A stretch of DNA of 64,000 nucleotides from Campylobacterales bacterium. GTDB taxonomy: Bacteria; Campylobacterota; Campylobacteria; Campylobacterales; Sulfurospirillaceae. This document shows, piece after piece, positions 9,702 through 25,933 of this stretch. Position numbers and translations under genes: made by a program. Location: assembly GCA_016930915.1 (NCBI GenBank), contig JAFGFU010000024.1:1-64000 (forward strand). The letters are read 5' to 3'. The stretch's first letter is position 1, and every line of letters starts with the position of its first letter. The notes under the pieces were generated by a model, which saw only the letters and a list, made by a program, of their open reading frames with translations, was not told the DNA's origin and ran no database searches.

Positions 9702-9725
9702 TTAATAATGCCGGAGGTCACTACT

Positions 9726-10850
9726 ATGGCAATAGATTTAAAAGAATTTCCGAATGATGTAGATATTGGGTTAAAAGCCAATAAGAATTTTACAAAGTTT
9801 TTCTATCGCTTTAAAATTGAGGGAACAACAAAAAGAGGAATTATTGATTACAGCCTAAAAGATTGGGATAAGAGAACAAAAGTTTCAAATGCAAAAATAG
9901 AGTTAGAAACAAAACGCAAACATGGAACTGCAATTAAAGCAAGTTTTACAGAAAATAGCCCGTTAAATACAGTGGCAGATATTTATTTTGAAACAGTTTG
10001 CAACGCCAAATCTAATTGGACAAATGAAAGACTTAATGCATATAATTTATATTGTCGCTATAGTATAGGTAAAAAGAAAATTAAAGATATAAAAGTTTTA
10101 GATATTGACCGCCTAAGAAAAGAAATGGAAACAAAAGGTCATTCTAAGCAAACTGCAAATGGATGTAGCCCTCGAACAATTAAAAAAGTCATGATGCAAT
10201 CTCTCAAACCAATTCTTCAATATGCTATAGACAACAAAGCGTTAATTGACATACCAAAGATCAATTTGCCAAAGCAACACAAAGCAAAAAAGATTGTTAC
10301 TGATGCTGGAACTAAATTGGCTCTCTTGTATAAAACAATTTTTGCACTTTATGAAGATGATCCTTTTTATCGCGCCCTATTCCTTTTTGCACTTTATGGC
10401 AGAAGATGGAACGAAATAAGAACTCTAAAATGGACAGATATAAAATTTTTAGAGAACACATATACTATAAGGGCAGAGAATAACAAAATTGGAATTAACC
10501 AAGTCTACGAGCTACCAATCCCCATTGCTGAAGCAGTATCACAACTCAGGAGCCAAGGTGATCTAATTTTTGAGTCACCCATCACACAACAAGAGCTTTT
10601 TACGCCTAAAAAACAACTAGCCAAGATTAAAAAAATTGCTCAAATGCCTGAACTAACTATGCATTATTTTAGACACATATTAGTTTCTGCAATGGGCGAA
10701 AGTGGTGTTGCTGGTACAATTCTTAGTGCTTCACTAGGTCACACAAATTTAGATACTGTCAATCAATTTTATCTATCAGCAAATCATACGAAAGCATCAG
10801 TAGAAGCAAATAAAGCACTTGGAATAATTGTATCTGGGAATAGAGAGTAA
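9726..10850 (+). CDS. int: Tyrosine-type site-specific integrase of the island
   Basis: 374 residues from the ATG at 9726, which has a clear GGAGG eight bases upstream; an ATG at 9708 lies upstream of this site and is less likely. An N-terminal arm-binding domain, a SAM-like core-binding domain (about 95-180) and a C-terminal catalytic domain follow. Catalytic residues are visible: Arg in ALYGRRWNEIRTLKW, HxxR in MHYFRHIL, His in LGHTNLD and the nucleophile Tyr in NQFYLSA. It lies just inside attL and is transcribed inwards, the usual place for the recombinase of a tRNA-targeted island. It probably catalyses integration into tRNA-Met. Confidence 0.93.
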   Translation: MAIDLKEFPNDVDIGLKANKNFTKFFYRFKIEGTTKRGIIDYSLKDWDKRTKVSNAKIELETKRKHGTAIKASFTENSPLNTVADIYFETVCNAKSNWTNERLNAYNLYCRYSIGKKKIKDIKVLDIDRLRKEMETKGHSKQTANGCSPRTIKKVMMQSLKPILQYAIDNKALIDIPKINLPKQHKAKKIVTDAGTKLALLYKTIFALYEDDPFYRALFLFALYGRRWNEIRTLKWTDIKFLENTYTIRAENNKIGINQVYELPIPIAEAVSQLRSQGDLIFESPITQQELFTPKKQLAKIKKIAQMPELTMHYFRHILVSAMGESGVAGTILSASLGHTNLDTVNQFYLSANHTKASVEANKALGIIVSGNRE

Positions 10851-10938
10851 TCGATAAACTCCAATGTTGGACAATAATTAGTACTTAAATAAGCATTTTT
10901 GTTGACACGGAATTTCTAACACTCCCAAGATTTATACT

Positions 10939-12771
10939 TTACAAATTTCCCCAAATATATTTACAAATTGATAAATAAAGTGCTTGTCTATCTTCTATAT
11001 CACTTTTTTTAAACTCTTCATGAGCTTTAAATGGTAATTTTGTAGATTTAATCATATTTAAAAAGTTAGGATTATTTTCATAAGCCAATGGAGTTAATGA
11101 TTGAACTAATAAATTTTCTTTTACATAATGCTTATGTTTATCTTTATATTCTTTATTCCCATATGATTGATTAGTTCCTCTTGGTAGTAAAACTAAATCA
11201 CCCATTCTATTTCTGAAAACTTCAAAATCTGTTTTTTGGTCAAATTCATTTTTGTGTCTTTCATATTTGTTTGCCCAAATATGTTCAATCTCAAACTGCT
11301 TTCCTTCAGGTCTAAAATAACTGTTATAATTAGTATTAATACCAGCTTGTTTATCAACATAAGATGAAATTCTTGATAAAAGAAATTTAATAAATTTTTT
11401 ATTCTGTCCGTGCATACCAAATTTATTCATATTGTCCCAAACTTCGGGCATAGATTGCAGTTTAGCAGTTAAAATTTCTCTAATTTCTTCAGTAGTTTTG
11501 CCACGAATCTCTTTTACTAATGTATACATAGTATATCTTATTGAACTAGATGCAAACTTTTTATAATTTATAGATCTCCTAACAACAAAAGCTTCAATAT
11601 ATTTTGCAACAAGATTCATTTTAGATTTTATTGTTACATCACTATCATCTGGATTTAATGGTGCTAGCAATAATGGATAGCTTAGCGATGTAGCAATTCC
11701 CCAGTCATCAATATAATAAATATGCTCCAAATCACTTTGAAGTTCATTTGAAGCTACCATTATCATCAGGTATGCTTTTAAATAGAACTTGAAATCTTGA
11801 TTTATAAATCTAGTGAATGTTTCACTATCATTTTCATTAAGAGCAACCTTAGAAAGATTTTCTCTTACCCAATTATGAAATCTAGTACCAATTTTTTCAA
11901 AATCCTCATTTTGAGAACCTTGCTTACCCTGTCTAATAGTATCTGCATATTTTGCTCTTAACCAACTTTGAATAAATCGCTGATCTTCATCCTTATCATA
12001 GTCGTGCAATGTCTGCATAGATTCTTTCCACATGTTGTTTGCTTTTACTCTAGTTTTTATATCATAAAACCTTGAAAGAAGAAAACCTTTCAACATTTCG
12101 GTTGGTGTTAAATTCAATCCTCTATCATTCATTGTTTCAAAAATAGTATATGCATTTTCATCGGAATAAGCTACAATCTCCACTAATATAACATTCTCTT
12201 TTAACCAATCGATAAAAAAGCTAAGTAATTTACCTTTTATTTCATCAGGAAAACACTCCTCAATATTGATATATCTATTCGTCATATTTATTGTAGACTC
12301 ATCGTCATCATCATTTGGTGTATATTCTCCTTTATCAAACAAATTTTGTAAACAAGCTGTTCTTTCTTCTACTTGAATATTAAAAGACTTTGCACCCCTT
12401 AATTCTGAAAAAATCATATCTTTAATATCTTCATTTAGTCCTAACTCTTTTTGTAAGTTATTAATATAAATAAGTAGTAAAGTTAAAGAAGTAAGTCTTT
12501 GTTGTCCATCTATAATACTTCTAGTTCCATTTTTTTCACTTATAACGAATGGTCCCATATAGTAGTTATTATAGTTTGCTCCATCCTCTCTACTATCGCC
12601 GTCTGTATACTCATTTAGAAAAGAAATGGTCAAATCTGATATAAGCTGCTCAATATGTTTTTGTTCCCAACTATATTCTCTTTGAAAATAATCAACTATA
12701 TATTTTTTCTTTTCCAAAACCCAACTAAGTGTTCTATCATGAGCATCTATTTTATGATCAATTTTTGACAT
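10939..12771 (-). CDS. DUF262/DUF1524 protein (GmrSD-type nuclease family)
   Basis: 610 residues. The N-terminal DUF262 half has the ParB-like signature IIDGQQRLTSLTLLL near residue 88, preceded by YFQREYSWE. The C-terminal DUF1524 half has the HNH-like motif EIEHIWANKY followed by RMGDLVLLPRGTNQSYGN. Both halves in one chain is the arrangement of GmrSD-type IV restriction enzymes, which use nucleotides and cut modified phage DNA. It is the last gene of the defence operon, 56 bases after hsdR and on the same strand. The exact target modification cannot be read from sequence. Confidence 0.85.
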   Translation of the reverse strand: MSKIDHKIDAHDRTLSWVLEKKKYIVDYFQREYSWEQKHIEQLISDLTISFLNEYTDGDSREDGANYNNYYMGPFVISEKNGTRSIIDGQQRLTSLTLLLIYINNLQKELGLNEDIKDMIFSELRGAKSFNIQVEERTACLQNLFDKGEYTPNDDDDESTINMTNRYINIEECFPDEIKGKLLSFFIDWLKENVILVEIVAYSDENAYTIFETMNDRGLNLTPTEMLKGFLLSRFYDIKTRVKANNMWKESMQTLHDYDKDEDQRFIQSWLRAKYADTIRQGKQGSQNEDFEKIGTRFHNWVRENLSKVALNENDSETFTRFINQDFKFYLKAYLMIMVASNELQSDLEHIYYIDDWGIATSLSYPLLLAPLNPDDSDVTIKSKMNLVAKYIEAFVVRRSINYKKFASSSIRYTMYTLVKEIRGKTTEEIREILTAKLQSMPEVWDNMNKFGMHGQNKKFIKFLLSRISSYVDKQAGINTNYNSYFRPEGKQFEIEHIWANKYERHKNEFDQKTDFEVFRNRMGDLVLLPRGTNQSYGNKEYKDKHKHYVKENLLVQSLTPLAYENNPNFLNMIKSTKLPFKAHEEFKKSDIEDRQALYLSICKYIWGNL

Positions 12772-12827
12772 TATTCTTCCTTTTTTTTCTAAACCTCAAT
12801 ATCTAAACAATACAACCATTTTTTATA

Positions 12828-15767
12828 CTACCTTGCCCTCAATGCTCTTTCAAAGCTATCTAGCATCCCAATTCTAAATGCCTCATCGCCAGCAAAAAGC
12901 TTATAAAGCTCAAGCTCTTTTTTTCGTTCTTTATTCATAACTTCTGCAACGATTCTTTCTAATGCTATTCTTCTCGTATGCGTGTCGTTATTGTCTTGGT
13001 ATTTGGTTTGAAAATCATCATGCGTTTGCACTTTATCCATAAGACTTATAAATTTAACTCTTTGCTCTTGCGGTGTTGCTTCCCAACCATGAAACCACTT
13101 TTCGTTAAATGCTTCAATGATACTGTCTAATAAGTCTTTTTCAGGCTCACCATGCGTTCCTCTTGGATTTGCATTTTGTGGGTCTAGTTGTGTCTCACTC
13201 TCGTCAAGCTCTATATTTGCACTAAGCTTTACTCTTTCAAGCCCATAGGTTGACAAATCAACACTATTTAACAGTTCATCTAGTTTATCTTGGTCTTTAT
13301 CTTTTATAATCAATTTTGGTATTAAAAATTTTAAAAACCAAAAGAGTTTTTCCCATGCAACTATTTCATAAGGCATAATAGAAGCCATCTGCCCATAGAT
13401 TTTTACAAACTGTTTTGCTTTGATTTTATAATCTACTTTATCTTCATCTTTAAGCTCTAATGTATTATTAAATCTCTCAGCCGCCGTATCTATTATTGGT
13501 GAAAGCTTACTTGCATCTACACCTTTGAAATATTTTTCAAAAAATTCATCAACTTCATTTGATTCATAAACACCTAAATCATCAAGTGCGTCTTTTAATT
13601 CATGCAACACATTTATATCAGTAGATTCACTAAGCGTTGTTGATGTATAAAATGGGTCGAAGGAAGTTTTAATATCCTCTATTTTATTAAAAAAATCTAG
13701 TACAAATAAATCTTCTGTTTTTTTACCATATTTAGATGCTGAGCGATTAAGACGAGAGAGAGCTTGAACTGCTATTACTCCTTGAAGTTTTTTATCTACA
13801 TACATTGTACAAAGCTTTGGTTGGTCAAAACCTGTTAAAAACTTATTTGCAACTACGAGTAACTTATATTCATCACTATCAAATTTTTCACTTATATCTT
13901 TTCCTGCAAAACCATTCATTCCATCTTCTGTATAATCAATTCCTTTAACCTCTTTTTTGCCAGAAAATGCGATTATCGCCTTAAATGGGTTGCCAAGCTC
14001 TACAAGTTTCTTATTTATTGTTTGAAAATAAACAATAGCTGTTTCGATATTGGCTGTTACAACCATACCTTTTGCTTTGCCTTTTAGCTTCTTAGTTTTG
14101 ACAACTTTTTCCATAAAATGGTCTAAGATAATCTCCACTTTTGTAGCTATTGTTGATGGATTCTTTTCTACAAAACTTCTTAATTTCTTTTGGGCTTTTT
14201 TTGTGTCAAATAGTGGATTATCTTCTATTGATTTTGCTATTTCATAGTAACTTTTATATGTTGTATAGTTTGATAACACATCTAAAATAAATCCTTCCTC
14301 AATAGCTTGTTTCATAGAGTACAGATGAAATGGTTTAAAAGTTCCATCTTGTTGTTTGGTTCCAAACTTTTCTAAAGTTGTATTTTTGGGAGTTGCTGTA
14401 AATGCAAGGTATGAAGCATTTCCTTTCATTTTACGACTTTGCATGATTTCTAAAATCATATCTTGAGCATCCATTTCTTCGTCAAACTCTTTTTTACCCA
14501 TTGCTTCATTCATTTTTCCATGAGCTGAACCACTTTGAGATGAATGAGCTTCATCTATGATAACCGCAAATCTTTTATCGCTTAGATCGCTTATGCCATC
14601 TACAATAAAAGGAAATTTTTGAATAGTAGTAAGTATTATCTTTTTACCATTTTCAAGATTGCTTTTGAGTTCACTTGAACTGTATGCAGGAGCTACTATA
14701 TTTTTTTGTTCACTGAAGCTTTTTACATTATCACGAAGTTGTTTATCAAGAAGCTTTCTGTCTGTTACGATAATTACACTATCAAATAGTGGATAATCCA
14801 GACCTTTACTCCCTTGTATATGTTCACTGCTCGGATAAGCTTCTATAAGCTGATATGCACTCCAAGTAATAGAGTTTGATTTTCCACTTCCTGCACTATG
14901 TTGGATAAGGTAGGTTTTCCCAACACCATTGCAACTGACATCATCTATCAGTTGTCTAACAACATCAAGTTGATGGTATCTTGGAAAATAAAGCGTTTCA
15001 CCATCCAGCCTTACAAAGTGCTGGATGATGTTTGCTAATGAATTTTTACTAAAGATTTCTTCCCAAATATAGGCAGTTTTATGTCCATTTTTATTTACTG
15101 GATTGCCAGCTCCAAAATTATTTCCTTTATTAAAAGGCAAAAAGAAAGTTTTATCATTATCTAGTTTTGTAGTCATAAATGCTTCATCAGTGTCAATGGT
15201 AAAGTGAACGATACATCTAGCAAAATTTAATAATGGCTCTCTTGGATCTCTATTTTCTTTATATTGCTTAATCCCATGATACCGTGCATTTTGTCCTGTC
15301 CAATGGTTTTTAAGTTCCATTGTAATAATTGGTAAGCCATTTAAGAAAATTACCATATCGAGTTCTAACAAAGGATTGGCATTTGAAAAGGTTACTTGTC
15401 TTGTGATACTAAATTGATTTGAAGCAAACCTTCTTTTGAGTTCGTCTCCACTTGAAGCCAAAGGAGCAATATAGAAAAATGTAAAATGAGCATCATCTAC
15501 ATCAAGACCTTTTTTAAGGATTTTTAGAATCCCATACTTTTTAATCATCTTATCAAGTCTTTGGATGATTTTGAGTTTGTATTGAGGATCTCTCTTGAGT
15601 TTATTTAACTCTTCTTCTTGGGTAGATTCTAAAAAATTCCAAAATATCTTTTCATCAATCGCATACTCTTTATTAAAGTCTTTGTTTTCACCTTTATAAA
15701 AAGCCTGTGTTAATAAAGATTGTTCAATACAACTTTCTAATGCTTCTTCGTTTGTTTGACTACTCAT
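12828..15767 (-). CDS. hsdR: Type I restriction endonuclease subunit R
   Basis: 979 residues, normal for HsdR. The N-terminal PD-(D/E)xK nuclease is seen as LELDMVIFLNGLPIITMELKN; then come SF2 translocase motifs: Walker A QHSAGSGKSNSITW, DEAH in VIIDEAHSSQSG, motif III AFTATPKNTT and the second RecA domain with QALSRLNRS. It translocates and cuts DNA that lacks HsdM methylation, together with HsdM2-HsdS. Its start overlaps the rhuM stop by ATGA. In this operon hsdR is separated from hsdMS by hamA, hamB and rhuM, an unusual interruption. Confidence 0.95.
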   Translation of the reverse strand: MSSQTNEEALESCIEQSLLTQAFYKGENKDFNKEYAIDEKIFWNFLESTQEEELNKLKRDPQYKLKIIQRLDKMIKKYGILKILKKGLDVDDAHFTFFYIAPLASSGDELKRRFASNQFSITRQVTFSNANPLLELDMVIFLNGLPIITMELKNHWTGQNARYHGIKQYKENRDPREPLLNFARCIVHFTIDTDEAFMTTKLDNDKTFFLPFNKGNNFGAGNPVNKNGHKTAYIWEEIFSKNSLANIIQHFVRLDGETLYFPRYHQLDVVRQLIDDVSCNGVGKTYLIQHSAGSGKSNSITWSAYQLIEAYPSSEHIQGSKGLDYPLFDSVIIVTDRKLLDKQLRDNVKSFSEQKNIVAPAYSSSELKSNLENGKKIILTTIQKFPFIVDGISDLSDKRFAVIIDEAHSSQSGSAHGKMNEAMGKKEFDEEMDAQDMILEIMQSRKMKGNASYLAFTATPKNTTLEKFGTKQQDGTFKPFHLYSMKQAIEEGFILDVLSNYTTYKSYYEIAKSIEDNPLFDTKKAQKKLRSFVEKNPSTIATKVEIILDHFMEKVVKTKKLKGKAKGMVVTANIETAIVYFQTINKKLVELGNPFKAIIAFSGKKEVKGIDYTEDGMNGFAGKDISEKFDSDEYKLLVVANKFLTGFDQPKLCTMYVDKKLQGVIAVQALSRLNRSASKYGKKTEDLFVLDFFNKIEDIKTSFDPFYTSTTLSESTDINVLHELKDALDDLGVYESNEVDEFFEKYFKGVDASKLSPIIDTAAERFNNTLELKDEDKVDYKIKAKQFVKIYGQMASIMPYEIVAWEKLFWFLKFLIPKLIIKDKDQDKLDELLNSVDLSTYGLERVKLSANIELDESETQLDPQNANPRGTHGEPEKDLLDSIIEAFNEKWFHGWEATPQEQRVKFISLMDKVQTHDDFQTKYQDNNDTHTRRIALERIVAEVMNKERKKELELYKLFAGDEAFRIGMLDSFERALRAR

Positions 15768-16759
15768 TTTAACCTCTTTATGTCTTCTTCAAGCTCTTTT
15801 AGACTTTGGAATTTTTCTATTTTTTTCTGCTCATCTTTAAATTTTTGATACTCTAGTTCACTCTTGGCTTTTGCTATTTCGTGGCTTATTTTTCCTGCGT
15901 GAGTAAGCAATTCTCTACCATTCATGGACAATATCATATCGAGCCTAGTTATCCAATCTTTCATGTACATAGGCATTTTTTGAGATGCCATCGTTTCTGC
16001 AAATGCTAAATACTGCTCGACTAAAAGCCCAAGAAGTTTTATCTCTTCTTCGTCCAGATAATTTTTAGCGACACTTACATCTTTTTTGGTGATATTTTTG
16101 TTCTCTTTATCAAATGACATCATCCCTAAAAGCGGTTTTGCGATATCGACCCTGTTGTGTACCAGTTCAGCAGCCGTTTGGCTTGACACTGCCCATAAAA
16201 GCTTGTTTTGCACTATTTTAAAAAACTCTATTGTTTTTTCATCTGAAGCATTATAGTCAATGCTTGTCATATAGATATCTTTTATTTTTTGATAAAAAAA
16301 TCGCTCACTAAGGCGTATCTCTCTAAGGCGGTGTTGAAGCTCATCAAAATAGCTCATGGAGTTGCCATTTTTAAATCGCTCATCATTGAGTACAAAACCT
16401 TTGGTGATATACTCTTTTAGCTTGTCATTTGCCCAGATACGAAACTTTGTACCAGTGGTTGAGCGTACTCTAAAACCAATGGCTATCATCATATCGAGGT
16501 TGTAAAACTTCACATCATTACTTTGAGTTTTCCCTTCAATAGCTCCATGTTGTGTGGTTGTTCGGAAATTCCGAACAACCACACTTTCATCTAGTTCACC
16601 CTCTTCAAAAATAGCTTTAATATGCTCACTGATAGTTGATTTTGCTTTGCCAAATACTTCACAAATTTGAGCTTGAGAAAGCCACATAGAGCCATCTTCA
16701 AACATCACATCAACTTTGATATTGCCAGTTTCGTTTTGGTAGATTAAAATATTATTCAT
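15764..16759 (-). CDS. rhuM: RhuM-family protein
   Basis: 331 residues. The N-terminal part matches the RhuM family: MFEDGSMWLSQAQICEVFGKAKSTISEHI looks like a DNA-binding KilA-N/winged-helix-type module, and FYNLDMMIAIGFRV follows as in other members. The C-terminal third is helical and charged. RhuM genes are often found inside type I restriction loci, but no biochemical role is established that I can state. It overlaps hsdR (ATGA), so it is translated with it. A regulatory or defence-accessory role is only inferred. Confidence 0.85.
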   Translation of the reverse strand: MNNILIYQNETGNIKVDVMFEDGSMWLSQAQICEVFGKAKSTISEHIKAIFEEGELDESVVVRNFRTTTQHGAIEGKTQSNDVKFYNLDMMIAIGFRVRSTTGTKFRIWANDKLKEYITKGFVLNDERFKNGNSMSYFDELQHRLREIRLSERFFYQKIKDIYMTSIDYNASDEKTIEFFKIVQNKLLWAVSSQTAAELVHNRVDIAKPLLGMMSFDKENKNITKKDVSVAKNYLDEEEIKLLGLLVEQYLAFAETMASQKMPMYMKDWITRLDMILSMNGRELLTHAGKISHEIAKAKSELEYQKFKDEQKKIEKFQSLKELEEDIKRLK

Positions 16760-16815
16760 TTTATACTATCCTTTGTACTTGTCAGTGAATTCTGTCTTGT
16801 TTTTTATAATTTTAA

Positions 16816-18918
16816 TCAATTATTATCCAATCTTTGTTGCTTAGATATACCATCATAAAAATAATCTAATATATATAAATCAAATTCATCAAATGTATCG
16901 ACTGCGTCTTTAATATATTGAATCCCTAACTCATTAAACTTATTTATTACAGAATGTATATCTAGTTCTTCATCTTCAAAATTAATAATTTTAGCAATAT
17001 GAAGTTTTTTTGATAACATTCTTGGTAAACCGTACTCCTCTAATTGATAAACAACTGATGGCAAAAAAGCATGAGAAATTCTCGAGATAAATGGTGAAAT
17101 ATCTATATTTTTATTTTTGAAAATAATTTTTTGTAGAATATTTATATCTGATAATAATGCTGCTAATTTAAAGCTTACATTTCTTTCAAGTTGAAAAAAT
17201 AAATCAATATTAATTGATTTACTAGAAAGAGAAGATAATAAATCTGGAATTGATTTAGTCCAATTAAAAGATAATATTTGAGTAAAATATACAAAATTAG
17301 CATATTTAGTATCCCATGTACCTTGTAACTTGATAACTTTATATAAAGGATTTTCCCAATTTTTAGGACTATTATTTAAATGAGCAAGCCCATTCCAAGA
17401 ACTAGGATGAGTTATCATATCAATAGCGATTTTTTCTACAATTTCTCTACTTGATTGAAAAATATCTTCTTTTATTAATTGATTATAAACATCTTTGCCC
17501 AGTATTTGGTGCATAGTCTCTTTATGTTCTATGATTTTTGCTATTTGTTCTTTTGTCAACTCATTTTTATATTCTTCTTCATCAACATCAGGAATACTGT
17601 TTTCTGGGAATTCTATTGTTAACTGTGTTTCGTCTTCTACCGGTGGTTTATCAAACAAATAAACATGTCCCACAAAATGTTTAAACATTCTGCCACTTCT
17701 ACCTATTATATTTTTATATGTAAAACTATTTAATTTATAAGTACCATTCTTACTTTTCCAAACAATTACATTTTGAGCAGATGTATTGACACCTTCTATA
17801 ATCGAAGAGGTAGAAACAATATAATTCAACCCACCTTCATCTTCAAACATCTTTATTTGTATTTGACTCAGTGAACGATGCAATCTGCCATTGTGAATGC
17901 CCATTCCTCTTTTTACACTTTGTGTAAGATGCCAGTTTTCAGCATAATTTAAAGTTAACCATTGTGCAAATTGTATTAATCTTTTGAATTTACTCTTTGG
18001 AATGCTATTCTTAACTAATTCAGATATCGTATTTATTTCTGTATAAGTTCCCGCATATATTAATGTTTTTTTATCTTTATGTTGGTTAAGAATTTCCAAA
18101 AGTTTTGCATTTTTATTGCTCGATGTTATTTCTTTATATGTGTCATGCCTTGATAGATAAACAGTGTTAAATGTTAGGGGTATAAATTCCATATCTTCTG
18201 TAAACAAATTAGAGCTTAATTTTTCAATATTTGGAGCTAAATAGTATTTCTGACTTGCTTTTTTGCCAAGTTTTAAAATTGCTTTTTGAAGTGTAGATGA
18301 CCGTTCTTTATCAAAATCAAAACTTGCTTTATAGAACTCATCAATTACTAATAAATCTAAACTCTTTATTATGTCAATATAACTAATAGCCCTTTCTTGT
18401 GGAAATATAAAAATATTTTTATCCGATAACTCTACATCAGCAGTGGTAATTATTTTATATTCATGCGAGAACTTTTTATAAATTCTTCTTCGTATCTCAT
18501 CTGTTAAGGCAATAGTTGGAACGATAATTAATATGTTATTTGGTCTTTTTATAGATATAAAAGAATCAATTACAAAACTTTTTCCGAAACTTGTAGGGGC
18601 ACTTATTGCAAGATTTTTCCCTTCCAAAAGCTTTTTTAATAAGCTTGATTGTTCTCTATGTAATGTTAATGGCTCTTCGCTTCCTATATCAACTTTAAAA
18701 GCATCATAAATAAGCCTATCTTCCAATATCGCATTATCTGTGTTAATGTAAGGGTACAGTCCTGTGAGACGAATCAAATGATTTACTACAGGTGTATATT
18801 CTATATTATTATTTTTCATATAGTCGAGTAACAAAATTAATTGATTTCTAGCCTTATCTTCATTACTTAAATCAAGATGCTTGTTGATTTCTTTACATTG
18901 ATTAAAAATATCCATCAA
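16816..18918 (-). CDS. hamB: Hachiman helicase HamB
   Basis: 700 residues. SF2 helicase motifs are present: Q-like HREQSSLLKKLLEG, Walker A variant APTSFGKSFVIDS, DEAH-like VIDEFYKA, an SxxTxE-like segment KTLIYAGTYTEI, STSSIIEGVN and the arginine-finger motif NIIGRSGRMFKHF. It partners with the DUF1837 gene directly upstream, with a four-base ATGA overlap. The pair defines the Hachiman phage-defence system, in which HamB is the helicase that senses damaged or phage DNA and controls the HamA nuclease. The residues after about 440 have no family I can name. It lies inside the type I restriction operon. Confidence 0.88.
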   Translation of the reverse strand: MMDIFNQCKEINKHLDLSNEDKARNQLILLLDYMKNNNIEYTPVVNHLIRLTGLYPYINTDNAILEDRLIYDAFKVDIGSEEPLTLHREQSSLLKKLLEGKNLAISAPTSFGKSFVIDSFISIKRPNNILIIVPTIALTDEIRRRIYKKFSHEYKIITTADVELSDKNIFIFPQERAISYIDIIKSLDLLVIDEFYKASFDFDKERSSTLQKAILKLGKKASQKYYLAPNIEKLSSNLFTEDMEFIPLTFNTVYLSRHDTYKEITSSNKNAKLLEILNQHKDKKTLIYAGTYTEINTISELVKNSIPKSKFKRLIQFAQWLTLNYAENWHLTQSVKRGMGIHNGRLHRSLSQIQIKMFEDEGGLNYIVSTSSIIEGVNTSAQNVIVWKSKNGTYKLNSFTYKNIIGRSGRMFKHFVGHVYLFDKPPVEDETQLTIEFPENSIPDVDEEEYKNELTKEQIAKIIEHKETMHQILGKDVYNQLIKEDIFQSSREIVEKIAIDMITHPSSWNGLAHLNNSPKNWENPLYKVIKLQGTWDTKYANFVYFTQILSFNWTKSIPDLLSSLSSKSINIDLFFQLERNVSFKLAALLSDINILQKIIFKNKNIDISPFISRISHAFLPSVVYQLEEYGLPRMLSKKLHIAKIINFEDEELDIHSVINKFNELGIQYIKDAVDTFDEFDLYILDYFYDGISKQQRLDNN

Positions 18919-19862
18919 TTTTCATCTCTTTCAAATATTGCTGTTTTAGAAAATTTATCTACTAATATCGACTTATTAGGAACTGGAAATAAAATTAAAT
19001 GAAATTTAACTTCATGATAGTTATAAACATCACTAAACTTTGTATCCTGCTTTTTCATAAAAACTTCTGCTTTTTTAATATGTTCTGTCATAATATTTTC
19101 TTTGTATTTTTCAAAACTATCTGTATTATCCTTGGTAATGTTACATTCATGAAGTATAAGTATTGGTATATGTAACTGTTGCTTAATATCATCAAGTGAT
19201 ATTCCATCTGACAATTTATTCTTAATTTCAGCAAGTAAAACTTCATCTTTGATAAATAAATCTAAATCTTTTGTTGAAGTTACTATACTAAGCTCTTTTC
19301 TAAGTTTATCATCTATAAACATATTGTGTACAGAGTCTACTATGGAATTTAATCTCGCATCGTCTATACTATTGTAAAATTTCGCTTCTCCAAGCCAAAG
19401 AGAAAAAGTACCATCATTATTTAGTGTAATATGAATACTATCAGCACCTTTTGCAAAATCATTTCTATTTTGTTTATAAAATATTTTAGGTACTACGGGA
19501 AGTGCAGAATAATACTTTTTCATTATTCCATAAAGTAGTATCTCTCCAATTTCCCCACCACTTTCCTCACCACTTACAAGTCTGAGATTTTTTGCTGATT
19601 TGGTTAATATTGTTTTCTCATCTCCAATTAATGCTTCTCTCTCAGTTTGAGACAATGCAGTTTCTTTAATATTATTCCAAATAAAATGCTCAAATTGTTG
19701 TCTTCTCCATTTACCACTTTCAAATCCATTTACCAAACTTAATAAAGCTTTATTGTTAGGATTTATTTCCTCAGTTGATAAATTTTGTAAAATATCATCA
19801 ACGACAACATCAAATATAACACTTGTTCCTGTATGTGTTGTATATGTACTAATCACAAACAA
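18915..19862 (-). CDS. hamA: Hachiman nuclease HamA (DUF1837)
   Basis: 315 residues. The DUF1837 hallmarks are clear: GEESGGEIGEILLYG, VPKIFYKQNRNDFAKGADSIH and LWLGEAKFYNS. These give the E, D and ExK of a PD-(D/E)xK nuclease core. Together with HamB it forms the Hachiman system, where the nuclease degrades DNA when the helicase is triggered. Its start lies within the end of hsdS (14-base overlap), so its translation is tied to the restriction genes. Identification rests on motifs plus the adjacent helicase. Confidence 0.9.
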   Translation of the reverse strand: MFVISTYTTHTGTSVIFDVVVDDILQNLSTEEINPNNKALLSLVNGFESGKWRRQQFEHFIWNNIKETALSQTEREALIGDEKTILTKSAKNLRLVSGEESGGEIGEILLYGIMKKYYSALPVVPKIFYKQNRNDFAKGADSIHITLNNDGTFSLWLGEAKFYNSIDDARLNSIVDSVHNMFIDDKLRKELSIVTSTKDLDLFIKDEVLLAEIKNKLSDGISLDDIKQQLHIPILILHECNITKDNTDSFEKYKENIMTEHIKKAEVFMKKQDTKFSDVYNYHEVKFHLILFPVPNKSILVDKFSKTAIFERDEN

Positions 19863-21138
19863 CCCTCACTTTACCTGTAACTGCACTATCAATAAGTGTA
19901 GCTTTATATTCTTTTAGTTTTGAGATATAGTTTTGTTGAAGTTCGATTGCCATATTGATTTTCGTTGTTTGGGTTTCTATATACTCTACGATTTGAAGTT
20001 GTTCATCATACGATGGATAAGGAATTAGAATATCTCCAAACTTATCAAAATAAAGTCTTAATCTCATATCCATGATGCCTCTTGAATATTTTTTCATTTC
20101 TTGCGAAAAAACTTTTAATCTAAAAAGTTCATGATAATATTTTCCTGCAATATCTTTTTTTGCTCTTAGAATATCATAAGCGGGACTTGTTACGCCTTCA
20201 TATTCTGATAATCCAATTGCTCCCATCCATGCAAGAAGTTTATTTACAATAAAATCACCTTTTTTAACTCTCCAATAACCATCAGTAGTTGAAGCTTTAT
20301 TGCCTTTTTCAGCTAATTCTTTTCTTGGTTTAACTCCAATATCTGTATAAATAGAAAGTAGCTCTTCATCATTTGCTTTTGGAGCTGGCTCTATGATTAA
20401 TTTAAAGATATTTTTGACTTTACTGATGTTCCAATGCTTCGGTATCTTTCCAATCCACTCAACACCACTATCTTTAAACTCTACATCTTTATCTAAACCT
20501 TTTGTTACTACATCATTGATAACGATTTGTTTTCGCTCTTTAAGCAGTGCGATGAGTTTTTCTTTTTGACTAATAACTTCATCAATTTGAGCTGTTCTTT
20601 CATCAAGGAATGAGGCTATTTTTGTTTGGTCATCTTTTGGTGGCAGAGGCATTTTAATGTTTTTTAATTCTTTACTACTCAACTCCATAAAAGTTGTTCC
20701 ACTGCCTAAACTATTAAGTAGTTCTGTTTTTGTATAAAATTGATAAAACATATATTTTTCATTAGTATTCTTATCAATAACAATAGATTTACATCCCTGA
20801 TTTGTACATAACTCATTTTCTGCGATAGCTATATTTCCAATAGGAGCCCTTGTTGTCATAATTATTGAGTTTTTGGGAACTAATGTTGTGCCACAACTAT
20901 TCAATCCAAGCTTAGAAATAAATCTTTCTGTATTGCTAATATAACTTGATTTATTAAAATCAGTTGGTGTAGCCCAAGAGATATTTCCGTTCCAATATTT
21001 TTCTATTCCAGAAGAAGGAGTTGCCCCATTAAAAACTTTTGATATATATTTCAATTTCTTAACTTCCCAATCTTCAGGAATTTCCCCCAACCACGCAACA
21101 CCGCTCTCTTTATAAGAAGTATATTTTTCCAATGTCAT
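19849..21138 (-). CDS. hsdS: Type I restriction specificity subunit S
   Basis: 429 residues with two target-recognition domains, each opened by the usual phrase (WLGEIPEDWEVKKLKYISKVF near residue 15 and WIGKIPKHWNISKVKNIF near 225) and each closed by a conserved helix (LPPKDDQTKIASFLDERTAQID; YPSYDEQLQIVEYIETQTTKIN). It sets the DNA sequence read by HsdM and HsdR. It begins two bases after hsdM. The recognised sequence cannot be deduced. Confidence 0.95.
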   Translation of the reverse strand: MTLEKYTSYKESGVAWLGEIPEDWEVKKLKYISKVFNGATPSSGIEKYWNGNISWATPTDFNKSSYISNTERFISKLGLNSCGTTLVPKNSIIMTTRAPIGNIAIAENELCTNQGCKSIVIDKNTNEKYMFYQFYTKTELLNSLGSGTTFMELSSKELKNIKMPLPPKDDQTKIASFLDERTAQIDEVISQKEKLIALLKERKQIVINDVVTKGLDKDVEFKDSGVEWIGKIPKHWNISKVKNIFKLIIEPAPKANDEELLSIYTDIGVKPRKELAEKGNKASTTDGYWRVKKGDFIVNKLLAWMGAIGLSEYEGVTSPAYDILRAKKDIAGKYYHELFRLKVFSQEMKKYSRGIMDMRLRLYFDKFGDILIPYPSYDEQLQIVEYIETQTTKINMAIELQQNYISKLKEYKATLIDSAVTGKVRVVCD

Positions 21139-21140
21139 CT

Positions 21141-23489
21141 TTATACTCCCAAAATCTCTTTGATAAGACCTTCACTAGCCTCTTCAAGCTCAAGAATATC
21201 TTTTGCTACTTCTTCTAGCGCTCTTAGTGGTTTATGGGTATAAAAGTATTTGTTAAAGCTTATCTCATAGCCTATCTTGACACTATCAAGATTGATCCAC
21301 GCTTCTTCTACATGTGGTTTTACCTCTTGTAAAAAGTACGCTTGGATGCTTACATGTAAAGGGATATTTTCACTGTCTCTAAGCTCTGTTTCGCTCTCAT
21401 ACTCTACATATTCATCTTTTTTACCTGTGGCAAAGTAACCAAAGTGAGCAAGTTCATTTTCTTTACATGTAAGATGTGTTAAGAGTTGTTCTTTTCTTTC
21501 TCCAATTATCTTACTGACTTTTTTGATTACTTTTTGTGCATTTTCATCATACCAACTTACAGCATTCAATATCGTATTTAGCTCGGTGCTACTTAGTTTT
21601 ATCTTTTCATTTTTTAGTGTTTTTTCAACTTTATCTTTGAAGATATTAAAATCATCATATTCAGTTGTTCCTATTTTTTCTTGAAGTAATTTTGCTGTGT
21701 TTTCTAAAGTTTTATGTTTTGTCCATAACTCTTTTGAAAGTAGAGATTTCGACTGTTTTGTATTTAGTTCTATGTCATTTTTATCTAAGTATTCTTCAAT
21801 AGCTTTTTTATGTTTTGACAAGTCTACATAACACGCTGCTTTATACTCTTCTAAACACCATCTCATAGGCTCTTCTAAAGTTTTATCAAATTTTAGTGTT
21901 TCTATCAAATCATCTCTAAGCTGAGACTTCAATCTTTTTGGTCGCTCAATATTGACTTTGTAGTATCCAAAATCACTATTATCAAAGATTTTTGATGAGA
22001 TTTTTTTACCATCACACTCATCATCACATGTTTCAAACTTTTTATAAATCTCCATGATTTTGGAGATATGTTTAGGCTCTAATTCGCAGTTTTTATCACC
22101 TAAATTTTTTCGCAATTTTGAGTATGAATCATTTGCATCGATGAGTTGCACTTTGCCTTTTCTCGTTTGTGCTTTCTTGTTTGATAAAAGCCAAATATAG
22201 GTTGTAATTCCCGTGTTATAAAAAAGATTGTTTGGTAGCTGGATGATGGCATCAAGGAAATCATTTTCGATGATATATCTTCGTATGTTACTTTCTCCAC
22301 CACCTGCATCACCTGTAAAAAGGCTACTTCCATTGTGAACAGAGGCTATACGGCTTCCCACGCTGTTTGAAGATGATGGTTTCATTTTTCCAACCATTTC
22401 CATTAAAAAGAGTAACTGTCCATCACTACTTCGTGGAGTTGCATCTACATCACTTTTCTTGCCCCAATAATCAGCTAAATTTACAATAAATCTTGTATCG
22501 ATGACATCTTTACCATCTTTGATATATTTTTGTTCACTTACCCATGACTTACCATAAGGAGGATTGGAGAGCATAAAGTCAAATTTTATTCCTGCAAAAT
22601 CATCAACGCTTAGTGTTGAGCCATTTTTGATGTTTTCAGGGTTGTTTCCTTTTACCATCATATCTGATTTACAAATGGCATAAGTTTCGTCATTTATCTC
22701 TTTGCCATACAAGATAACATCACCTGTTGCTTTTATCTCTCCATCTTCATCTTTGATAAAATTTTGAGACTCTGTTAACATACCTCCACTTCCACAAGCT
22801 GGGTCATAGATGGTCATAACTGGCGGTAGATTGTCTTTTATAGGGTCAAACACGATATGAGTCATAAGGTCTATCACTTCTCTTGGTGTGAAGTGTTCTC
22901 CCGCTTCTTCGTTGTTGTCTTCATTAAATTTTCGTATCAGTTCTTCAAACACATATCCCATACCAAGATTCGTCAGTGGCGAAAGTTTTTTGCCCTCAGG
23001 ATCAAGTGCTTCTTTGTCTGTTAGATTTATGTAAGAGCTTGTAAATTTTTCTAAAACATCAAGAAGTACATCTTTGTCTGCCATATGTTTGATTTGAGAT
23101 TTTAATTTGAACTTTTCAATAATCTCTTGTACATTTTTACTAAATCCATTGAGGTACTCTGTGAAGTTTGCTTCAAGCATTTGTGATGAGTTTGTTGCAG
23201 TATCAAATAGTTTTTGTAAAGTCCATTTGCTAGTGTTGTAAAAAACATATCCACTTGAATCTTGTAATCCTCTCTCATCAAATTCTGTAAAACCAGCTTC
23301 CTCTTTTTGAAATCTAAGCTCTTCGAGTACAGCTTCTTTTGTTGGCTCTAACAGTGCATCAAGTCTTCGTAAAACAACCATAGGCAAGATAACATCTCTA
23401 TATTTACCCCTTACATACACATCTCTTAGACAATCATCTGCGATTGACCATATAAAACTTACTAATTTGTTGTGTACTGCTTGATTCAT
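21141..23489 (-). CDS. hsdM: Type I restriction N6-adenine methyltransferase subunit M
   Basis: 782 residues. An HsdM N-terminal helical domain (1-170) precedes the methyltransferase with SAM motif TIYDPACGSGGMLTES and catalytic motif MLSNPPYGKSW, both intact. The C-terminal 250 residues are an extra charged helical region, longer than in the 500-residue classical HsdM. It methylates the host site with HsdS. Two copies of the ACATGTA palindrome common in the core chromosome lie in this gene (21349, 21462) and nowhere else in the island, so it may have a different history from its neighbours. Confidence 0.95.
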   Translation of the reverse strand: MNQAVHNKLVSFIWSIADDCLRDVYVRGKYRDVILPMVVLRRLDALLEPTKEAVLEELRFQKEEAGFTEFDERGLQDSSGYVFYNTSKWTLQKLFDTATNSSQMLEANFTEYLNGFSKNVQEIIEKFKLKSQIKHMADKDVLLDVLEKFTSSYINLTDKEALDPEGKKLSPLTNLGMGYVFEELIRKFNEDNNEEAGEHFTPREVIDLMTHIVFDPIKDNLPPVMTIYDPACGSGGMLTESQNFIKDEDGEIKATGDVILYGKEINDETYAICKSDMMVKGNNPENIKNGSTLSVDDFAGIKFDFMLSNPPYGKSWVSEQKYIKDGKDVIDTRFIVNLADYWGKKSDVDATPRSSDGQLLFLMEMVGKMKPSSSNSVGSRIASVHNGSSLFTGDAGGGESNIRRYIIENDFLDAIIQLPNNLFYNTGITTYIWLLSNKKAQTRKGKVQLIDANDSYSKLRKNLGDKNCELEPKHISKIMEIYKKFETCDDECDGKKISSKIFDNSDFGYYKVNIERPKRLKSQLRDDLIETLKFDKTLEEPMRWCLEEYKAACYVDLSKHKKAIEEYLDKNDIELNTKQSKSLLSKELWTKHKTLENTAKLLQEKIGTTEYDDFNIFKDKVEKTLKNEKIKLSSTELNTILNAVSWYDENAQKVIKKVSKIIGERKEQLLTHLTCKENELAHFGYFATGKKDEYVEYESETELRDSENIPLHVSIQAYFLQEVKPHVEEAWINLDSVKIGYEISFNKYFYTHKPLRALEEVAKDILELEEASEGLIKEILGV

Positions 23490-23500
23490 CTACCTTGCCC

Positions 23501-25237
23501 CTAAAAATTATTATGTATTGTATTTATTTTTTGTGTTATTTCTTCTATATCTTTGAACATTTTGATTTCATTATGAAAATTTGCGATGATCTGCTTATCT
23601 TCTTCATCTGTTAGCATTGGAACTTTTAACTTTTTAATTTCTATCGTTGCAATTTGTGGCATTGCCACGCCAGACACTAAAGTCGACAGCAACGCTTGTC
23701 CCAAGATTGATTTCAAGAACATATACAATACTATAGCTTTTTGTTTTTTATTATTACCTTTTAATCGTATGACTTGTACTGCTTGAGATGCGATCATCGT
23801 TTCACTTGCATCACCCACAATTGCCACTTTACCGATAGTTCCTTTTGTACTTAACAGTACATCATAAGGCTCCAATTTATAAGTTTGCAATCTTTTATAC
23901 TGTGAACCTATTTGTTTAATTTTCCCACATTCAAAAAGAAATCCAGCTTTGCTAAAATCAGATGGTGAAACCTCATAAACTTCTTTTCCCTCGCCCTCAT
24001 CTTTAAATAATTGTGATCTTCTTATCTCTGCTATGTTCTCCAAAGTGACAAGCTCAAAGTTGGTTAGTTTGTTGTGTATTGCTTCAATTTCATTAGAAAT
24101 GATGTATCGATCAATGGCAAAAGAATAATTGTTTCGACAAAGTTCATCAGGCGATACGATCCTTGAGATGTTTTCTAATTCTTCTTTTTTTTCATAAAGC
24201 GATACGATACGATGAATGTCTTTAAGTGTAAGTCTTCTGCCTTCTCTTTGTACAAAACTTTCATGCTTGAGATTTAAAAAATAGACATTGTTATCTTTCT
24301 TTTGTTTATTAACAATGACAAATGTTGTTTCGATTGATGTAGCATTATGCAAGTTCGGAGGTAGCTGTATAATTGCTTCTAAAAGGTTATTATCAAGCAG
24401 ATATTTTCTAAATTCTTCATCTTGGCTACCTCTATACGTAAAGCCAACAGGCATTAAAACAACAGCCTTCCCACTCATTTGGGATAATATATGTTCAAAT
24501 TGTGCAATATCACTGTTTGATTTTACTTTATGGAATTTAAATCTATTGTATTTGTCAGTACGTAAAAATTCATTATTGGTCGGTACACCCATTGGTGGAA
24601 AAGATAAGATACACTTGAATTGCATTAGCGAGTCTGGCGAATCTACTTTTATATACGTTGGGTGGGTTAATGGATCTGTAAAAGTAAAATCGATAGAAAC
24701 ATCTTCTATAGTTTTCATTAACTCAATCACAAATTCATCTGCAAAGGACTCTGCAAATATTTTTTTGTCTGTATAGTATGCTATATTGTAACCATGGCTA
24801 AAAGGTGAATATATTTCCGAGCATTCTCCATCCAATAATCTGATCCCTAAATCTGCTATTTGATTTGCAATTGAAAAGCCTGTGTACTCTTCTGCGAGTG
24901 AAGAAAAAACATCAAAAACTTTTGGGACAACCAATTCTTCGTCAGCGATACTAAAAAGTTTATCTAGTACATCGTTTGTAATAGTGTCAAGTCTAATATT
25001 TTGATGTAAAAAGAGCTCAAAAAGATTGTTTGATTTTGCTAGTGCTTGGATAGGGGATTGAAGATTTTTAACATCAACCCCTTGATTATAAACATATCTG
25101 AATGTTAATTCTTTTTGATCTATATCTGCTGATATTTTCTTCCAAGCAATCAGTAGATAAACAATTTTTGCAAGATGTTCAACTTTCAACTTAATGTTAA
25201 AATCTCTGAGTAGTGAGATAAATTGCTTTTCATTCAC
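23501..25237 (-). CDS. Degenerate HsdM-like methylase fused to a specificity domain
   Basis: 578 residues. The N-terminal 390 residues follow the HsdM fold order, but the SAM motif position reads EIYSPFSHGYNIAYY where active enzymes have DPACGSGG, and the catalytic NPPY position reads LSFPPMGVP. The following segments are normal (QLPPNLHNATSIETTFVIV). From about residue 395 a single HsdS-like recognition domain follows (FELVTLENIAEIRRSQLF to MPQIATIEIKKLKVPML). It is the first gene of the operon, 11 bases before hsdM. It is probably unable to methylate and may bind DNA or HsdM/S. Function unknown. Confidence 0.8.
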   Translation of the reverse strand: MNEKQFISLLRDFNIKLKVEHLAKIVYLLIAWKKISADIDQKELTFRYVYNQGVDVKNLQSPIQALAKSNNLFELFLHQNIRLDTITNDVLDKLFSIADEELVVPKVFDVFSSLAEEYTGFSIANQIADLGIRLLDGECSEIYSPFSHGYNIAYYTDKKIFAESFADEFVIELMKTIEDVSIDFTFTDPLTHPTYIKVDSPDSLMQFKCILSFPPMGVPTNNEFLRTDKYNRFKFHKVKSNSDIAQFEHILSQMSGKAVVLMPVGFTYRGSQDEEFRKYLLDNNLLEAIIQLPPNLHNATSIETTFVIVNKQKKDNNVYFLNLKHESFVQREGRRLTLKDIHRIVSLYEKKEELENISRIVSPDELCRNNYSFAIDRYIISNEIEAIHNKLTNFELVTLENIAEIRRSQLFKDEGEGKEVYEVSPSDFSKAGFLFECGKIKQIGSQYKRLQTYKLEPYDVLLSTKGTIGKVAIVGDASETMIASQAVQVIRLKGNNKKQKAIVLYMFLKSILGQALLSTLVSGVAMPQIATIEIKKLKVPMLTDEEDKQIIANFHNEIKMFKDIEEITQKINTIHNNF

Positions 25238-25259
25238 AATGTAAACCTTACAAAATAAT

Positions 25260-25334
25260 TAGTCTAGTATTTACTAGATATTTTGAAATGTTAGCAATTT
25301 TTGTTGTATTTGTCAAGTAGTCTAGTATTTACTA
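25260..25334. promoter_or_regulatory. Repeated palindromic operator upstream of the defence operon
   Basis: The 17-mer TAGTCTAGTATTTACTA occurs at 25260-25276 and 25318-25334, 58 bases apart. The first copy extends to the inverted repeat CTAGTA-TT-TACTAG. The pair lies just upstream of the first methylase-like gene (start 25237) and downstream of the Gp2-like gene, where the defence-operon promoter should be. Two spaced copies suggest a dimeric repressor or a looped operator. The binding protein is unknown. Confidence 0.55.
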
Positions 25335-25342
25335 CCACTTGA

Positions 25343-25933
25343 TCAACTCCTAGATCTTCCTTCTTTCTTTTGATCTTTTTTAATAGTACCACGCTTAAAT
25401 GCTCTATCTTTTGAACTATTTTTAACAGGTTCTATCGTTTGTTCTTCTTTGCAAAAATACGATAAAACATTTACCACTAATATCGTTCGTTTTTTCTTGT
25501 CCTTACGATCTAGTAGCCCTATGCCATTGCTATCAGAGTCATATTCATTGCGATGGCAATTATGATAACTTCCTTTTCCCCCTGTAATTTCTTCCCAATA
25601 CTTACCAATCTGATCAGCTTTATAAGAACTATTTTGTACTTTTTGTCCATCGTACATAAAAAGAGTATGGAAATGTATGCCTTTACTTTCTGTATATTCT
25701 TGTTTGCATATGTAGCCCTCCTGATCTTTAAAGACAGAGGGTTTACTTCGTCTGTTGTTCATCATACGATTAAAGTCATTATTTGCATCATTAAGTGTTA
25801 TATTTTCGCTATATGGCTTATCGTAGGATAAATCAACTCTGATGATATTGAGTTTTGAGTTGTCCGCTATAAGTGCATCAGTATAAGCTATTGCACTTTT
25901 CAATCTCTTATTGTTTTGTTTGTTGTTTGACAT
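25343..25933 (-). CDS. Inovirus Gp2/YagK-like protein with an HUH motif
   Basis: 196 residues. The segment ESKGIHFHTLFMYDG has the H-hydrophobic-H core of HUH (rolling-circle) endonucleases, and the overall pattern (YCKQEYTESKGIHFH..., KADQIGKYWEEITGGKGSYHNC) matches the inovirus Gp2 / YagK-YfjJ C-terminal family. A strong AAGGAG precedes the start. The C-terminal 30 residues are very basic. It may nick DNA for replication or transfer of the island, or be a remnant of a satellite phage. Catalytic Tyr residues cannot be assigned with confidence. Confidence 0.7.
   Translation of the reverse strand: MSNNKQNNKRLKSAIAYTDALIADNSKLNIIRVDLSYDKPYSENITLNDANNDFNRMMNNRRSKPSVFKDQEGYICKQEYTESKGIHFHTLFMYDGQKVQNSSYKADQIGKYWEEITGGKGSYHNCHRNEYDSDSNGIGLLDRKDKKKRTILVVNVLSYFCKEEQTIEPVKNSSKDRAFKRGTIKKDQKKEGRSRS

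Follow-up and report, generated by a model that had tools for sequence, protein, structure and literature searches.

What does a DNA methylase do at the head of a restriction operon once the motifs for methylation are gone? The window (the whole 64,000-nucleotide stretch analysed here, from a campylobacterotal genome of 2.23 Mb) raises this question with a 578-aa minus-strand open reading frame, present in a single copy in that genome, whose product we call M/S (Table 1). The frame starts with GTG, has no internal stop and matches Pfam N6_Mtase (aa 174–385, 6.6e-32) and Methylase_S (aa 393–572, 1.1e-11) only, with no HTH family among the hits, in agreement with a first-pass annotation that had read it as a methylase fused to a specificity domain and as the leader of a defence operon (hsdM begins 11 bp downstream). 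The replacements reported there, SPFSHGYN and SFPPMG, are both present: in alignment, motif I is YSPFSHGYN where active enzymes have DPxxGxG (YDPACGSGG in the HsdM of the window), and motif IV is LSFPPMG where active enzymes have [NDS]PP[YFW] (LSNPPYG in HsdM), the asparagine being swapped for F. M/S therefore lacks both motif I and motif IV of an active type I N6-adenine methyltransferase, and the methylase fold presumably can no longer bind cofactor or methylate. The fold itself is retained. In the predicted structure (pLDDT 88), the N-terminal part matches the PacII M subunit (Z 33.0, 373 aligned, rmsd 3.1), and the C-terminal part matches one half of HsdS (Esub1, Z 19.4; 1yf2, Z 17.5) followed by a 34-aa helix, giving a half-S architecture with a single TRD and a single C-terminal helix where canonical HsdS has two TRDs per chain.

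Table 1. Positions of the M/S gene, its predicted promoter and candidate operators, and the genes that follow it in the window.
Feature	Position	Strand	Remarks
Putative operator O1, TAGTAAATACTAGACTA (TAGT-N9-ACTA)	25318..25334	-	Ends 1 bp before -35; kept in homologues
Predicted -35 hexamer TTGACA	25311..25316	-	Top-listed sigma-70-like site in a scan of 10800-25450
Predicted -10 hexamer TAACAT	25288..25293	-	17-bp spacer; TG before the hexamer
Putative operator O2, TAGTAAATACTAGACTA	25260..25276	-	58 bp from O1, just past the predicted transcription start
M/S gene	23501..25237	-	Lost-motif HsdM-like domain (about aa 1-385), one TRD (393-540), C-terminal helix (544-577); proposed autoregulator
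hsdM	21141..23489	-	Follows M/S in the operon; 782 aa, with DPACGSGG and NPPY intact
hsdS	19849..21138	-	
hamA (Hachiman)	18915..19862	-	
hamB (Hachiman helicase)	16816..18918	-	
rhuM-family gene	15764..16759	-	
hsdR	12828..15767	-	
GmrSD/DUF262-family gene	10939..12771	-	Last of the same-strand run

About 35 full-length M/S relatives, from Campylobacterota, alpha-, beta- and gammaproteobacteria, Geobacteraceae and Cyanobacteria, were recovered by searching plasmids and 397 genomes of the class, by a genome-wide scan and by two further family searches; the 399 genomes of the order to which one betaproteobacterial genome belongs added no members. The family has YxP[FWYC] at motif I and has lost the motif-IV asparagine throughout, FPP being the commonest replacement. 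In a tree of 51 proteins, 29 degenerate M/S proteins formed one clade (support 100/99) that excluded HsdM and the intact M-S fusions. The dN/dS of the methylase domain was about 0.07–0.10; between the window and locus L040 it was 0.07 in this domain, 0.11 in the TRD and 0.13 over the whole of M/S. Because the loss is common to a multi-phylum clade under purifying selection, it is old and the protein is maintained; motif degeneracy is a conserved state of the family and not a local one. The same two observations rule out decay and sequencing error, the latter a caveat of the first-pass annotation, as the cause of the motif loss, and homologues 83% and 70% identical have the same replacements. 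A phage-borne family was likewise ruled out, with no full-length match in phages or viral contigs.

Two other kinds of M-S protein are worth setting beside this clade. A separate group of campylobacterotal fusions (L045–L067), a sister lineage in the tree with the domain order and size of M/S, differs from it in an intact motif IV (NPP[LM]Y) and a nearly intact motif I (NPCYGxGS), in its housekeeping neighbours and in having no promoter sites; these are probably solitary methyltransferases. An intermediate protein on Lactococcus cremoris plasmid pJM2A (L037, 5434–7236), whose placement in the tree is unsure, keeps motif I as DATAGTAG and has VPPF at motif IV; two AGT-N9-ACT palindromes, 141 bp apart, surround the promoter there, ahead of hsdM-hsdS.

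All genes from 25237 to 10939 of the window lie on one strand with gaps of ≤57 bp, and a sequence scan found no minus-strand terminator-like site between these positions; one promoter could therefore control the whole island, and we infer co-transcription from the M/S promoter. Flanking the operon (9708–10850 and 25343–25933) are genes for a tyrosine integrase and a replication protein of phage type (YagK/YfjJ, G2P-like); a Rad52-like gene lies farther out, and the arrangement is likely that of a mobile element. Across the family, a type I hsd gene follows M/S directly, after one gene or after a short gap in 23 of 30 degenerate loci, and the downstream systems vary: the window and L040 have the order HsdM-HsdS-cargo-HsdR; L041, L043, L044 and L080 have HsdR-HsdM-HsdS; L078 and L079 begin with an EcoEI-type HsdR; and L042, L137 and L139 have no adjoining restriction-modification (RM) system. 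Hachiman in the window and Kiwa in L040 make up the cargo that separates hsdS from rhuM-hsdR, and the slot after hsdS appears interchangeable (hamAB at 16816–19862 of the window; kwaAB at 10536–11959 of L040 and 11501–12879 of L076). The first-pass annotation had proposed looking for homologues beside Hachiman or type I loci: the type I association stands, but that with Hachiman is incidental, because Kiwa fills the same slot in L040 and adjoins hsdS in L076. With neither system in other loci, a general role for M/S as a Hachiman-specific partner is ruled out.

What many M/S genes share beyond their motifs is found in their leaders. In the window, two identical TAGT-N9-ACTA palindromes, O1 and O2, flank TTGACA-N17-TAACAT; this palindrome occurs in 16 places in the genome, and as a close pair only at the M/S promoter. 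Loci L040 and L041 keep both sites, with one base changed in O2, and the two corresponding positions of L034, L043, L044, L069, L071 and L072, 48–60 bp apart, are taken by AGT-N9-ACT palindromes of other sequence; L070 has one such site, read by eye. In the proteobacterial-cyanobacterial clade, the sequence is instead RGTA-N5-TACY, touching the -35 box in L036, L075, L076, L081, L082, L085, L086 and L088 and overlapping the -10 region in L038, L039 and L079. In 10 of 30 leaders, AGT-N9-ACT ended 0–6 nt upstream of a TTGAC box; the best of 2000 shuffles, covering all 64 x 13 combinations of half-site and spacer, reached 5. Either sequence at the -35 box, or a spaced AGT-N9-ACT pair, was present in 19 of 30 family leaders and in none of 37 controls (0/23 intact M-S fusions, 0/14 hsdM genes; Fisher 2e-9, a value that overstates independence). 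Many of the sequences scored were also those from which the motif had been read, and the loci share descent. Three of five held-out relatives carried an AGT-N9-ACT pair 60–71 bp apart, each with a shuffle probability of 2e-4 to 8e-4; L136 had no site and L140 no pair. Strict sites were absent from 11 of the 30 leaders (L035, L037, L038, L039, L073, L077, L078, L079, L080, L083 and L087), several of which have near-matches or sites over the -10. M/S thus has family-specific sites at its own promoter, as expected of an autoregulator of an RM operon.

Which protein would read these sites is best addressed by loci in which the candidates part company. Between the window and L040, HsdM is 96% and the M/S TRD 95% identical and O1 is unchanged, whereas the HsdS TRD (two variable blocks) is only 8–32% identical. 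In L041, O1 is kept and the M/S TRD is 86% identical in front of an unrelated HsdR-HsdM-HsdS. Candidate operators also persist in loci with no DUF4258 gene (see below), making DUF4258 unlikely as the site-binding protein, and in L042, L137 and L139, with no RM system downstream; the operators therefore follow M/S, and the simplest reading of the sequences is that M/S recognises them. The two operator classes match the two main M/S protein clades, although their half-sites and spacers differ, which counts against M/S as the reader, and the palindromes could instead belong to an unlinked regulator. Operator similarity correlated with TRD identity (Spearman 0.53) no better than with identity of the methylase domain (0.55), so the assignment rests on the L040 and L041 comparisons and the match of class to clade. 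We know of no characterised TRD that links M/S to AGT.

Taken together, we consider it likely that M/S, a methylase-TRD protein without catalytic activity, acts as a dimer on the promoter of its own gene and so controls the restriction-Hachiman operon, probably by repression. The methylase fold would be retained as a scaffold with its chemistry lost. Since each chain has a single TRD and a long C-terminal helix, two copies should pair through these helices, in the manner of truncated HsdS proteins, and recognise an interrupted palindrome, as deduced from EcoR124INT; sites of 13–15 bp with symmetric halves fit the geometry of paired half-HsdS. The dimer would bind TAGT-N9-ACTA at O1, touching the -35, and at O2, just after the start, and because O1 abuts the -35 and O2 lies past the expected start, occupancy of either should hinder RNA polymerase, so that output from the M/S promoter, including that of hsdM-hsdS-hamAB-rhuM-hsdR, would stay low and limit itself. 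We infer both the binding to O1 and O2 and repression rather than activation, the latter favoured because the promoter hexamers are near-consensus, although an activator could also bind at the position of O1. A further step, in which foreign DNA with type I-like sites for M/S titrates it off the promoter, or methylation of the sites alters its grip, so that infection turns the operon on, seems to us rather unlikely; if it were true, the reading head of the restriction enzyme itself would be the sensor that arms the restriction-Hachiman system.

A circuit of dual function, in which O1 recruits RNA polymerase at low dose and O2 shuts the promoter at high dose, is possible but unlikely: with TTGACA, a 17-bp spacer and TG-TAACAT no activator seems needed, and the 48–71 bp between O1 and O2 exceeds the spacing known for C boxes. 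The conserved order and spacing of the sites speak for it, as does the resemblance of O1 beside the -35 and O2 past the start to the two-site logic of type II C proteins (PMC12707154). We are doubtful that the locus is a toxin-antitoxin module with M/S as the DNA-binding antitoxin of a DUF4258 toxin, even though a DUF4258 gene lies directly upstream of M/S in 18 of 31 loci, mostly 1–17 nt away, DUF4258 has been catalogued among toxin-type domains whose function is undetermined (PMC4861877) and autoregulation is typical of such modules. Where the gene is present the candidate operators lie ahead of it, so that DUF4258 and M/S share a promoter; the window, with no DUF4258 gene upstream of M/S, and several close relatives lack it yet keep the protein and the operators, and comparison of the predicted DUF4258 fold with the PDB gave an uninformative best Z of 2.8. 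These genes (L071, 5246–5506; L044, 5876–6136; L086, 5462–5716; and 15 other loci) form a distinct subfamily tied to M/S, with H6, R10, QRG, DKGG and TYN nearly invariant.

It also seems improbable that M/S joins HsdM and HsdS as an accessory subunit altering the specificity or activity of the complex. Its folds are those of the two subunits and it usually adjoins hsdM or hsdR, but the neighbouring partners are unrelated (HsdM of the window and L041 share only 24.5% over 314 aa), the sites are kept in L042, L137 and L139 with no RM system next door, the M/S TRD does not track HsdS specificity, and the promoter sites would be left unexplained. Of the two roles floated in the first-pass annotation, a DNA-binding regulator is well supported in a narrower sense: the evidence favours an autoregulator of the operon promoter, with paired operator-like sites tracking the M/S TRD, over a regulator of the HsdM/HsdS complex. 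That M/S is a weak or solitary methyltransferase whose active site is unusual is highly improbable: the fold is intact, related M-S fusions have near-normal motifs and the Lactococcus protein retains a motif I-like sequence, but the whole clade has lost both the glycine loop and the asparagine of motif IV, and the intact fusions form a clade of their own, without promoter sites.

Autorepressors encoded by the first gene of an RM island are already known. RptR (RMS-proximal transcriptional regulator), a 79-aa helical protein encoded by the first ORF, represses type I islands, which are reported to carry DarTG2 between hsdS and hsdR, and binds TAGCTA repeats at its promoter (PMC12255303). M/S resembles it in leading type I restriction islands with other defence genes between hsdS and hsdR, and in the proposed repression of its own promoter through repeated palindromic sites; in contrast, it is a presumably dead methylase-TRD fusion of 578 aa whose site is long and bipartite, and has no apparent homology to RptR, differing in size, domains and sites. 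The C proteins of RM systems, including a type I case in Mycoplasma gallisepticum, exert autogenous control (PMC12707154) from the head of the operon through two sites around the promoter, as proposed for M/S, but are small helix-turn-helix proteins, which the 578-aa M/S, with no HTH family found, is not. Regulatory methyltransferases with an N-terminal HTH, such as Ecl18kI and SsoII, also repress an RM promoter (PMC12707154), yet are described as active enzymes that use the added HTH, whereas M/S is presumably dead and its own TRD the likely reader. Half-HsdS proteins pair through helices and read interrupted palindromes, GAA-N7-TTC in the case of EcoR124INT (PMC3320862), with parallels in EcoDXXI truncations and NgoAV (PMC3874165); these combine HsdM with a half-HsdS in homodimers, as M/S would with its HsdM fold and one TRD, but methylate and, with HsdR, restrict, whereas M/S has lost its catalytic motifs and has its sites at its own promoter. 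We found no earlier description of this family in the open-access literature searched, which returned RptR and reviews. What appears to be new, judged from sequence, is a regulator made of a dead methylase-TRD fusion, with a site readable across phyla; M/S likely works like a controller protein outside the C-protein and RptR families.

Transcriptional control of type I restriction operons is known for few systems, and M/S would, if this reading is correct, represent a new kind of switch for them: a widespread regulator made by killing a methylase-specificity fusion whose ability to read DNA is retained, the counterpart in nature of dead Cas9 repressors. The operator would be readable from DNA, tying a TRD to its promoter site with no need for a methylome, and many of the proteins that carry the annotation 'type I restriction-modification system subunit M/S' or 'N-6 DNA methylase' would be unable to methylate.
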